64,000 nucleotides of DNA from Faecalibacterium sp. An122 (lineage in GTDB: Bacteria; Bacillota; Clostridia; Oscillospirales; Ruminococcaceae), in contig NZ_NFLL01000002.1 in NCBI RefSeq assembly GCF_002160895.1, forward strand, positions 62,001-126,000. The letters are read 5' to 3'. The notes under the pieces were generated by a model, which searched no databases, was not told the origin of the DNA, and saw nothing but the letters and a program-made list of their open reading frames with translations. Of this stretch, positions 44,372-46,842 are shown in pieces (the first letter of the stretch is position 1; every line of letters begins with the position of its first letter). The position numbers and the translations under genes are program-made.

Positions 44372-44385
44372 ACAAGATCGCTTCA

Positions 44386-44412
44386 CCCCTGCCGCCCGGC
44401 GGGGGTTTTTTT
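44386..44412 (+). terminator. Terminator after the CBS gene
   Basis: CCCC(T)GCC (44386-44393), loop GCCC, GGCGGGG (44398-44404) and then TTTTTTT (44406-44412). Confidence 0.8.
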
Positions 44413-44566
44413 CTGCCCCCGGAGGGTCCATCCCATCAAATTTTGCGCCAAAAGCCGCAGAAAAAACTTGAAAGTACAGTTTATAGGGCTTTTGTTCTGG
44501 TATTCTCTTGTCAGGACGAGGGAGGGAACCCTCCCCGAAACATCCGACAGAGAGGAGAGACAGAAG

Positions 44567-44683
44567 ATGAGCGAAATCGAGATCCGGTATGTGGGCGGAC
44601 ATGTGGAGGTATACAGCAGAAATGGGGCGTTCCTCTTCTCTGCCGACAACCTGCGGGAGGCCATGGAGGAGCTGCAGAGCTGA
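44567..44683 (+). CDS. 38-residue small protein of unknown function
   Basis: A short gene with a good ribosome binding site (AGAGGAGAG at 44551-44559) eight bases before its ATG, starting MSEIEIRYVGGHVEVY. The product is acidic with no membrane segment and looks like a beta-hairpin followed by a helix (DNLREAMEELQS). A longer in-frame start about 100 bases upstream would lack a ribosome binding site. It sits between the CBS gene terminator and the promoter of the antiporter. I do not recognise a family; coding is supported by the ribosome binding site and the intact frame. Confidence 0.6.
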   Translation: MSEIEIRYVGGHVEVYSRNGAFLFSADNLREAMEELQS

Positions 44684-44692
44684 AAAAAGTCC

Positions 44693-44721
44693 TTTACAAA
44701 CCGGCAGCGGGGGTGTATAAT
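44693..44721 (+). promoter_or_regulatory. Sigma-A promoter of the antiporter leader
   Basis: TTTACA (44693-44698), a 17-base spacer and TATAAT (44716-44721). Transcription would begin near 44728 and pass through the fluoride riboswitch. It lies just after the stop of the 38-residue gene. Confidence 0.9.
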
Positions 44722-44773
44722 CTCCCGCGGAGACGTCCCCGCCGGCCCGTTCCGGGCCCGCAGATGGGGCGTG

Positions 44774-44835
44774 CGCCGGGGAATGAAGTTCTCCCCAGGG
44801 CAACCTGAACCGCTTGAACAAGCTGATGACTTCTG
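44774..44835 (+). promoter_or_regulatory. Fluoride (crcB motif) riboswitch aptamer
   Basis: The first stem is GGGGA (44778-44782) with TCCCC (44792-44796), enclosing ATGAAGTT. A small inserted AGG-GCAA-CCT hairpin (44797-44806) follows, then the conserved GAACCGC. The second stem is GCTT/AAGC (44812-44823), followed by the invariant TGATGACTTC. The loop GAAGT (44785-44789) pairs with ACTTC (44829-44833) to form the pseudoknot of the fluoride aptamer. This matches the layout I know from the Thermotoga and Bacillus crcB RNAs. Upstream, ACGTCCCC/GGGGCGT and GGCCCG/CGGGCC form an additional leader stem. The downstream gene class (cation/proton antiporter) is a known fluoride regulon member. Confidence 0.9.
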
Positions 44836-44869
44836 TGATTGCAAGGTCGCAGAAGGCATCGGCTTTTTT
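44822..44869 (+). terminator. Regulatory terminator of the fluoride riboswitch
   Basis: GCTGATGACTTCTGTGA (44822-44838) pairs with TCGCAGAAGGCATCGGC (44847-44863) over 17 positions with one A-G mismatch, followed by TTTTTT (44864-44869). The left arm contains the aptamer's UGAUGACUUC, so pseudoknot and terminator exclude each other and fluoride would switch expression on. Confidence 0.92.
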
Positions 44870-44905
44870 GCGTCCTGTCCCGATTCGATAGGAGGAAACG
44901 ATTTT

Positions 44906-46114
44906 ATGCTCACATCTCTGGCGTTCATTTTCCTGGTGGGGCTGGCTTTGGCGGCGCTGTGCCAGCGTCTGCACCTGCCCCGCATCATCGGGATGCTGTT
45001 CACCGGCATCCTGCTGGGTCCCTATGTGCTGAACGTGCTGGACCCGTCCATCCTGTCCATCTCGGCCGACCTGCGGCAGATGGCTCTGATTATCATTCTG
45101 CTCAAGGCGGGCCTGTCCCTGGACCTGGCCGACCTGAAAAAGGTGGGCCGGCCGGCGGTGATGATGGCCTGCGTCCCGGCCAGCTTTGAGATTTTGGCCT
45201 TCTTTCTGCTGGCCCCGGCCATTCTGGGGGTGAACCGCATCGAGGCCGCCGTCATGGGCGCGGTGCTGGGCGCGGTGTCCCCGGCGGTGGTGGTGCCCCG
45301 GATGGTCCAGCTGATGGACAGCCGCTACGGCACCGGCAAGAGCATCCCTCAGATGGTGCTGGCGGGAGCTTCCTGCGACGACATCTATGTGATCGTCCTC
45401 TTTTCCTCCTTTGTGAGCATGGCCCAGGGCGGCGCGGCCCATGTGATGGACTTTGTGAATATTCCGGTGTCCATTGTGCTGGGGGTGCTGCTGGGCGCTG
45501 CGGCGGGCTGGCTGCTGAGCCAGTTCTTTGAGACCGCTTACGCCCACAAGCACTATGTCCGCAACAGCATGAAGGTGATTGTGGTGCTGGGGGTGTCCTT
45601 TTTGCTGATGGCGGTGGAGACCTGGCTGGAGGGGATTGTGTCGGTGTCGGGCCTGCTGGCGGTGGTCAGCATGGCCTGTGTCCTGAAAATCCGCAGCACC
45701 AGCTTTGTGTCCAAGCGCCTGAGCGAAAAATTCGGCAAGCTGTGGCTGGCCGCTGAGGTGATCCTGTTCGTCCTGGTGGGCGCGTCGGTGGATATCCGCT
45801 ACACCCTCACCGCCGGACCTGCCGCCGTTCGGATGATTCTGGCGGCGCTGGCCTTCCGGTCGGTGGGCGTGGCCCTCTGCGTGGCCGGCACCCAGCTGAC
45901 CTGGAAAGAGCGGCTGTTCTGCATGATCGCCTACCTGCCCAAGGCCACCGTCCAGGCGGCCATCGGCTCGGTGCCCCTGGCCATGGGCCTGCCCTGCGGT
46001 CAGATGGTGCTGTCGGTGGCGGTGCTGGCCATCCTCATCACCGCCCCGCTGGGCGCTCTGGGGATGGACCTGACCTACAGGAAACTCCTGACCAGAGAAC
46101 CCGAGACAACTTGA
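44906..46114 (+). CDS. Cation/proton antiporter (Na+/H+ exchanger family), fluoride-riboswitch controlled
   Basis: Membrane antiporter of 402 residues with about twelve hydrophobic segments of the Na_H_Exchanger fold. It begins LTSLAFIFLVGLALAALCQR and has LPRIIGMLFTGILLGPYVL, ALIIILLKAGLSLDLADLKK and GAVLGAVSPAVVVPRMVQL. It also has ASCDDIYVIVLFSSF, which carries paired aspartates in the expected ion-binding region. The ATG at 44906 has AGGAGG eight bases upstream. Expression is governed by the fluoride riboswitch, so the physiological role is probably tolerance to fluoride or to the acid load of HF entry. Ion selectivity cannot be read from the sequence. Confidence 0.9.
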   Translation: MLTSLAFIFLVGLALAALCQRLHLPRIIGMLFTGILLGPYVLNVLDPSILSISADLRQMALIIILLKAGLSLDLADLKKVGRPAVMMACVPASFEILAFFLLAPAILGVNRIEAAVMGAVLGAVSPAVVVPRMVQLMDSRYGTGKSIPQMVLAGASCDDIYVIVLFSSFVSMAQGGAAHVMDFVNIPVSIVLGVLLGAAAGWLLSQFFETAYAHKHYVRNSMKVIVVLGVSFLLMAVETWLEGIVSVSGLLAVVSMACVLKIRSTSFVSKRLSEKFGKLWLAAEVILFVLVGASVDIRYTLTAGPAAVRMILAALAFRSVGVALCVAGTQLTWKERLFCMIAYLPKATVQAAIGSVPLAMGLPCGQMVLSVAVLAILITAPLGALGMDLTYRKLLTREPETT

Positions 46115-46119
46115 AAAAA

Positions 46120-46154
46120 GCCCCGGCAGCTGGATGGCGCCGGGGCTCTTTTTT
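46120..46154. terminator. Bidirectional terminator between antiporter and SDR genes
   Basis: GCCCCGGC (46120-46127) pairs with GCCGGGGC (46139-46146), followed by TCTTTTTT. The AAAAAA at 46114-46119 provides the T run for the opposite strand. Confidence 0.9.
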
Positions 46155-46158
46155 GAGG

Positions 46159-46842
46159 TTACAGGGTGCCCACCGGCAGGGTGACGCCGTTGATCTTGGC
46201 GGCGTCCTGGCTCAGCAGGAACAGGATGGCCGGCACCACATCGGCGGGGCTGACGGGGCCGGGCTCCCCGGTCTCGGTCTGGAACGGCCCGGCCTGGACG
46301 CAGTTGACGGTGAGGCCGGCGGAGGCGTACTCGTCCGCCAGAGAACGGGCCAGGCCGGTGAGGGCGTTCTGGACCACCGAGGCGGAAGCGGTCTGCCCGG
46401 CGGGAACGCCCGGCAGGGCGCCGCTCAGCTGGAACAGCACCCGGCCGGCGCCGGCGGCAGCCATCCGGGGCAGGAAGGTCTTGCACAGCAGCAGGGCGCT
46501 GTCCAGCTGGACAGCCCGCTCCTCGGCAAAACGCTCCTCGTCAAAGCAGGCGTAAGCGGCGGGAATGGTCCGCAGCCCGGCCAGATGAATCAGATGGGTG
46601 GGGGCGGGGTAGGTATCGGTCAGATCGCTGAGGAATGCCCGTACCGCCAGCGGCTGGGTGAAATCCACGTCGTAGGGGCGGATGAAGCCGGGGCGGGCCT
46701 GGCACAGCCCCGCCAGCCGGGAGAGATCGCCGCAGCCCTGGGCCAGGATCAGATCTCCTTCCGCCAGAGTGGACAACAGCCGCTCCATCAGGGCCAGGCC
46801 CAGGGGAGAGGTGGCGCCGGTTATCAAATAAATGTTGGACAT
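46159..46842 (-). CDS. SDR-fold protein lacking the catalytic YxxxK motif
   Basis: A 227-residue short-chain dehydrogenase/reductase fold. The nucleotide-binding glycine motif LITGATSPLGLALMERLL (residues 6-23), the HLAG strand (NNAG position) and the Ser in FQLSGALPG are present. Where active SDRs have YxxxK, this protein reads GQTASASVVQNALTGLARS, without Tyr or Lys at the right spacing. The C-terminal VNCVQAGPFQTE corresponds to the usual PG motif. It is therefore probably a non-catalytic or altered-chemistry SDR. It is monocistronic on the minus strand with CCAGGAGGG upstream of its ATG. Confidence 0.8.
   Translation of the reverse strand: MSNIYLITGATSPLGLALMERLLSTLAEGDLILAQGCGDLSRLAGLCQARPGFIRPYDVDFTQPLAVRAFLSDLTDTYPAPTHLIHLAGLRTIPAAYACFDEERFAEERAVQLDSALLLCKTFLPRMAAAGAGRVLFQLSGALPGVPAGQTASASVVQNALTGLARSLADEYASAGLTVNCVQAGPFQTETGEPGPVSPADVVPAILFLLSQDAAKINGVTLPVGTL

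Follow-up and report, generated by a model that had tools for sequence, protein, structure and literature searches.

A transcriptional fluoride ON riboswitch very probably controls an NHA2-like cation/proton antiporter of the CPA superfamily, a reading from sequence to which a probability of roughly 0.93 is assigned. The aptamer match, the terminator, the overlap of aptamer and terminator, the gene family, and the conserved pairing of riboswitch and antiporter are directly supported. The features are as follows, with positions counted in the window, i.e., the whole 64 kb stretch of DNA that was analysed.

44693..44721, + strand: sigma-70-type promoter-like site, TTTACA / 17 bases / TATAAT (consensus scan, 11 of 12 bases)
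44770..44842, + strand: fluoride riboswitch aptamer (RF01734 match, model positions 1-64)
44778..44796, + strand: stem 1, GGGGA 44778-44782 / TCCCC 44792-44796 (sequence and covariance-model structure)
44785..44789, + strand: 5' pseudoknot strand GAAGT, inside the stem 1 loop
44797..44806, + strand: extra hairpin, AGG 44797-44799, GCAA, CCT 44804-44806, between stems 1 and 2 (insertion relative to the Rfam model)
44807..44823, + strand: GAACCGC 44807-44813 and stem 2, GCTT 44812-44815 / AAGC 44820-44823 (sequence and covariance-model alignment)
44824..44833, + strand: conserved TGATGACTTC (sequence and covariance-model alignment)
44829..44833, + strand: 3' pseudoknot strand ACTTC, at the end of TGATGACTTC and also in the left arm of the terminator
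44820..44869, + strand: intrinsic terminator, 44820-44840 / 44845-44865, with T-run 44864-44869 (fold of 44818-44873)
44890..44895, + strand: ribosome-binding site AGGAGG (sequence)
44906..46114, + strand: cation/proton antiporter of 402 aa, Na_H_Exchanger family, NHA2/SLC9B-like (PF00999; 7b4l_A, E 1.9e-37)

The entire window was searched on both strands with cmscan against 4227 Rfam families, and two matches exceeded their gathering scores: one tRNA, and the Fluoride family RF01734 at 44770-44842 (+), which scores 43.4 bits (gathering score 34) at an E-value of 1e-8. A preliminary description of this DNA had named a fluoride riboswitch of the crcB layout and proposed the Rfam fluoride model as its check; the match bears this out, and each part it had listed (the stems, GAACCGC, TGATGACTTC, the GAAGT/ACTTC pseudoknot and the AGG-GCAA-CCT hairpin) was located in the sequence. 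The RNA shares with RF01734, the crcB RNA motif, two stems, a loop pseudoknot, the GAACCGC and TGATGACTTC cores and an overlapping terminator; it differs from the model by the short hairpin between the stems, which is common in relatives. That the resemblance arose by chance and no riboswitch exists has a negligible probability: an E-value of 1e-8 across the whole window and all of Rfam rules it out, the promoter-like site ahead, the terminator behind and the conservation at orthologous loci also speak against it, and no point in its favour was found.

The host was compared with 149 relatives; of these 150 genomes, 40 contain an RF01734 match at E <=0.001 (35 of these over the cut-off). The loci of 42 of the 45 riboswitch matches were fetched, leaving out G115:C65, G094:C97 and G013:C121, and 37 of 43 aptamers (the 42 and a second copy from the host) were placed in an alignment, A1, which omits L080, L100, L101, L102, L103 and L003. 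Among these 37 aptamers the stem 1 helix is 98.0% paired and nearly invariant, stem 2 is 87.2% paired, and the pseudoknot helix is 98.4% paired, being mostly invariant and hence offering little covariation to judge by. The pseudoknot strands of the window copy, GAAGT at 44785-44789 and ACTTC at 44829-44833, are both present, as membership in RF01734 demands.

The promoter-like site is the only one in 44380-46200, where shuffled sequence gives a mean of 0.3, and its TTTACA-17-TATAAT arrangement, with 11 of 12 consensus bases, agrees with the 17-base spacing described before; a transcript would be expected to start near 44728. When 44720-44873 was folded, the 5' strand of stem 1 paired with 44723-44726; these bases lie just upstream of the expected start and are probably outside the RNA, and an earlier start would permit competition with stem 1. 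The leader between the expected start and the aptamer (44728-44777, about 50 bases) is G+C-rich, and a strong hairpin is possible in its fold. By eye, the relatives L009, L020, L024 and L033 have a TATAAT-like box within about 10 bases of the first stem of the aptamer. Just upstream of the riboswitch promoter lies a reading frame of 38 residues (44567-44683) with a ribosome-binding-like site and no Pfam match at E <=0.001.

Folded alone, 44818-44873 forms a terminator hairpin of 20 pairs that runs into TTTTTT; its energy of -28.2 kcal/mol (z -5.11) was equalled by none of 200 shuffles. The span 44820-44865 includes 44824-44833, so that the expression platform overlaps the aptamer, a feature of RF01734 members. 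The left arm holds the AAGC of stem 2 and TGATGACTTC, hence the 3' pseudoknot strand as well, and the aptamer and the terminator are therefore mutually exclusive. The preliminary description was right that this arm reuses the 3' core of the aptamer; its coordinates, 44822-44838, are corrected to 44820-44840. A simple terminator scan did not list the riboswitch hairpin, its sole listing being 44385-44406, probably because of single mismatches within the hairpin. By script, a downstream hairpin that takes in the aptamer core and is followed by a T-run was identified at 37 of 42 loci whose core is recognisable (the misses being G117, the first copy of G134, G072, G122 and G036) and at 25 of the 26 loci with an antiporter, where the G072 locus was missed because the script picked a longer fold. 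Overlapping terminators are already noted in the available part of the paper that first described the motif (PMC2864571). The available text of a 2026 study models covariation across the entire riboswitch, with a conserved aptamer-terminator overlap, and reports that 323 of 1901 fluoride riboswitch sequences (17%) worked when termination by E. coli polymerase was assayed in vitro (PMC13273304); a good aptamer match is thus no proof of switching.

In the proposed mechanism, RNA polymerase would start near 44728 and the aptamer would be made first. Without fluoride, the 3' half of the aptamer (AAGCTGATGACTTCTG) would be drawn into the terminator hairpin, and transcription would stop at the T-run ahead of the antiporter gene. 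The fluoride riboswitch class binds fluoride through magnesium, and with fluoride bound in this manner the pseudoknot between the stem 1 loop and ACTTC would hold, the terminator would be blocked and the antiporter would be made. Sequence and conservation thereby support the earlier proposal of an ON switch acting through a terminator that overlaps the aptamer, with the antiporter as its target; fluoride binding, control of termination, and the direction and role of transport are predictions. The antiporter probably helps to restore ion and pH balance after entry of HF, which releases protons and leaves fluoride in the cell. The physiological role given to the antiporter in the preliminary description was overstated, as it follows from gene position. 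Fluoride defence may also not depend on the antiporter alone, since the host encodes a CLC protein similar to one that is under riboswitch control.

It is highly improbable that the riboswitch has decayed, leaving a constitutive terminator that merely attenuates the antiporter. Decay does seem to occur in relatives, G036 having a sub-threshold aptamer (31.4 bits) ahead of an antiporter remnant, and the second copy in the host genome has lost otherwise invariant bases and kept its terminator; however, the window copy scores 43.4 bits by Rfam's own model, over the gathering score.

The pairing of a fluoride riboswitch with an antiporter has precedent. As given in the available part of a 2024 review, Na+/H+ antiporters are the next-most-common genes behind fluoride riboswitches after exporters (PMC11139923), and the available text on Clostridioides difficile describes an operon of a CLC gene and an NhaP-type antiporter gene behind a fluoride riboswitch (PMC11477304); these sources bear out the preliminary description's statement that the link to antiporters is known from the literature. 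In the C. difficile case, as described there, the CLC gene shares an operon with the antiporter, whereas the window antiporter is alone behind its switch and the next gene lies on the opposite strand. Set against the published riboswitch-controlled Na+/H+ antiporters, as far as these sources describe them, the window has the same pairing, and no difference in kind was found.

Downstream genes at the 42 loci were assigned by grouping them with BLAST, and only one or more representatives of a group were searched against Pfam. The next gene is an antiporter orthologue at 26 loci (including that of G061, which lacks its middle), a decayed antiporter remnant at one (G036), CrcB at six and CLC at two; at the remaining loci it is a NifU-like gene followed by a GGGtGRT gene (four), an MFS transporter (one), a MutS-domain protein (one) or nothing relevant (one, G021, whose 24.9-bit match is no convincing riboswitch and is counted among the 42). 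The riboswitch of G094, outside the 42, lies beside a CLC gene. Thirty genomes possess the antiporter orthologue, and in 26 of them it follows a fluoride riboswitch; the orthologues without a detectable aptamer are those of G027, G076, G023 and G014, the last two being partial genes. Across the wider phylum, RF01734 matches 156 of 398 genomes, and 10 of 20 long-form loci carry an antiporter 37-70% identical to that of the window. In G036, the locus L101 (G036:C20:22801-28372) consists of the sub-threshold aptamer followed by an antiporter remnant of 47 residues that contains a stop, and the genome has CrcB and CLC matches. G063 has three fluoride riboswitches, ahead of an MFS transporter, a MutS domain V protein and CrcB (L094, which is G063:C40:34398-41962, and L086).

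The antiporter product matches PF00999 with 154 bits against a curated cut-off of 26.2; this is its sole Pfam match at E <=0.001, and it has no match to the CrcB/Fluc or CLC-F profiles. It falls far below the NCBIfam cut-offs of PRK05326 (potassium/proton; 60.1 against 355 bits) and TIGR00932 (CPA2; 53.3 against 238.3 bits) and is filed in neither. Nearest by sequence among solved structures is NHA2/SLC9B2 (7b4l, 7p1i), an animal protein, at E 1.9e-37 over about 380 aligned residues. The two proteins have the SxDDI and LPKATVQAAIGSV motifs in common; NHA2/SLC9B2 has 537 residues with a longer N-terminus, whereas the bacterial protein, a predicted cation/proton antiporter, has 402. D158, D159 and K346 align with the NHA2 motifs SxDDI and LPKATVQAAIGSV, and among the orthologues behind riboswitches D158 and D159 are invariant in all 25 that have letters there, and K346 in 26 of 26. 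The paired aspartates and the lysine of cation/proton antiporters serve ion exchange, and their invariance in NHA2-like motifs argues for ordinary cation/proton exchange, the activity that the sequence favours for this protein. Sequence does not settle the direction of antiporter transport during fluoride stress, and the role is a predicted one.

A different reading accepts the riboswitch as described and has the antiporter-family protein itself export fluoride, replacing CrcB or CLC-F; this is very unlikely. CrcB is matched in 0 of the 30 genomes with an antiporter orthologue and in 16 of the 120 others (Fisher p 0.04, uncorrected for relatedness and the sole nominally significant contrast), where the 30 are the rows down to E 1.4e-52, the remnant of G036 (a genome with CrcB) is uncounted, and the sets were copied by hand. 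CLC-family matches occur in 12 of the 30 and 59 of the 120, and PF00654 cannot separate fluoride from chloride CLCs. Neither exporter family is matched in 18 of the 30 genomes; however, 56 of the 120 genomes without the orthologue lack both as well (Fisher p 0.22, uncorrected for relatedness). Also against a fluoride-exporting antiporter, the orthologues keep the DD and K residues of cation/proton antiporters without variation, and the one CLC protein of the host is 45% identical to a riboswitch-controlled CLC of G055 and has its GMGLV and GREGV motifs. Motifs of this type mark fluoride exporters. For replacement of the exporters by the antiporter, the CrcB exclusion is suggestive, but the lack of both families is not significantly enriched, and the idea is a weak one. 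It is accordingly unlikely, with a probability somewhat below one in ten, that the NHA2-like clade would be a dedicated fluoride-defence transporter replacing known exporters and possibly moving fluoride itself; a fluoride-responsive switch ahead of an ordinary cation/proton antiporter is the preferred reading.

The extra hairpin between stems 1 and 2 is very probably a real helix, judging by its pattern of base changes. In the 37 aptamers, 82.6% of its cells are paired, and two-sided changes are seen at each of the four pairs, one example pair being AU in 13, CG in 7, GC in 5, UA in 4 and unpaired in 7. Covariation over the whole four-helix structure is 0.198, compared with 0.098 when shuffled (0 of 500 shuffles reach the observed value) and at most 0.105 for slid versions, these controls leaving relatedness in place. 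At least three contiguous pairs are possible in 36 of the 37 aptamers, against a shuffled mean of 22.9 (0 of 300 shuffles reach 36), and at least four in 26, against 10.1 when shuffled; given the mean of 22.9, three pairs alone mean little, and the two-sided changes are the stronger evidence. The hairpin noted in the preliminary description is thus present, but it is not special to this RNA, and the candidate explanation that it is peculiar to the window or to antiporter genes was rejected, as the aptamers able to form it include ones ahead of CrcB, CLC, MFS and MutS-domain genes. The sample from the wider phylum, 20 members, was fetched for long match and gives no frequency; L286 and L289 among them carry extra bases in stem 2. 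At least three pairs are possible in 18 of 18 (shuffled 14.4, a count of 18 arising in none of 300 shuffles), although 7 of these stretches extend into stem 2, and the hairpin likely recurs outside the order. In a narrow literature search, limited to the source text available, no published description of the hairpin was found, and no novelty is claimed.

The second RF01734 match of the host scores 23.8 bits, below the cut-off (L003 2053-2133; contig C6 16052-16132). Behind it are a NifU-like gene (PF01592, 20.8 bits, just under the cut-off of 22) and, next in the operon, a GGGtGRT gene (PF14057, 656.7 bits). This copy departs from A1 at invariant or nearly invariant bases, among them one that leaves stem 1 mismatched and one that turns TGATGAC into TGACGAC, and keeps a promoter-like site and terminator; the G122 riboswitch, which precedes CrcB, has the same T-to-C change. 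The second riboswitch of the host may be decaying or altered. Among the five nearest relatives of the NifU-like protein, those in G004, G013, G016 and G134 (87-93% identical) are directly behind over-threshold fluoride riboswitches, and the one in G008 (91%) has no fluoride riboswitch upstream. Altogether the association with the NifU-like/GGGtGRT pair occurs in 5 of 150 genomes including the host (L003, L066, L076, L077 and L080). At L077 (G134:C25:14461-21864) the order is riboswitch, NifU-like gene, GGGtGRT gene, riboswitch, antiporter. A widespread link was not supported, as a scan with model R1 gave a convincing aptamer at none of the 80 loci named in relatives (the highest score was 14.4 bits, E 0.23; upstream DNA sometimes short, 211 bases at the least). 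The R1 score for the window is no independent evidence, since the window copy and its relatives are themselves part of A1. Among the papers available to the search, none had both 'fluoride riboswitch' and 'NifU'. In the available parts of two papers, on Bacteroides and Clostridium, GGGtGRT proteins are listed in tables of genes whose expression depends on iron (PMC10434189, PMC5395762).

Altogether, the window riboswitch and antiporter are a typical member of an arrangement that is already published and that related bacteria commonly have. Within this group, fluoride riboswitches precede one antiporter clade more often than they precede exporters (26 loci against 6 with CrcB and 2 with CLC, among 42). 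The NifU-like and GGGtGRT genes are a possible fluoride-regulon pair, through which the response to fluoride may gain a step related to iron-sulphur. The window provides a fully legible example of known regulatory logic, by which the antiporter's part in fluoride resistance, suggested by association, becomes directly testable.
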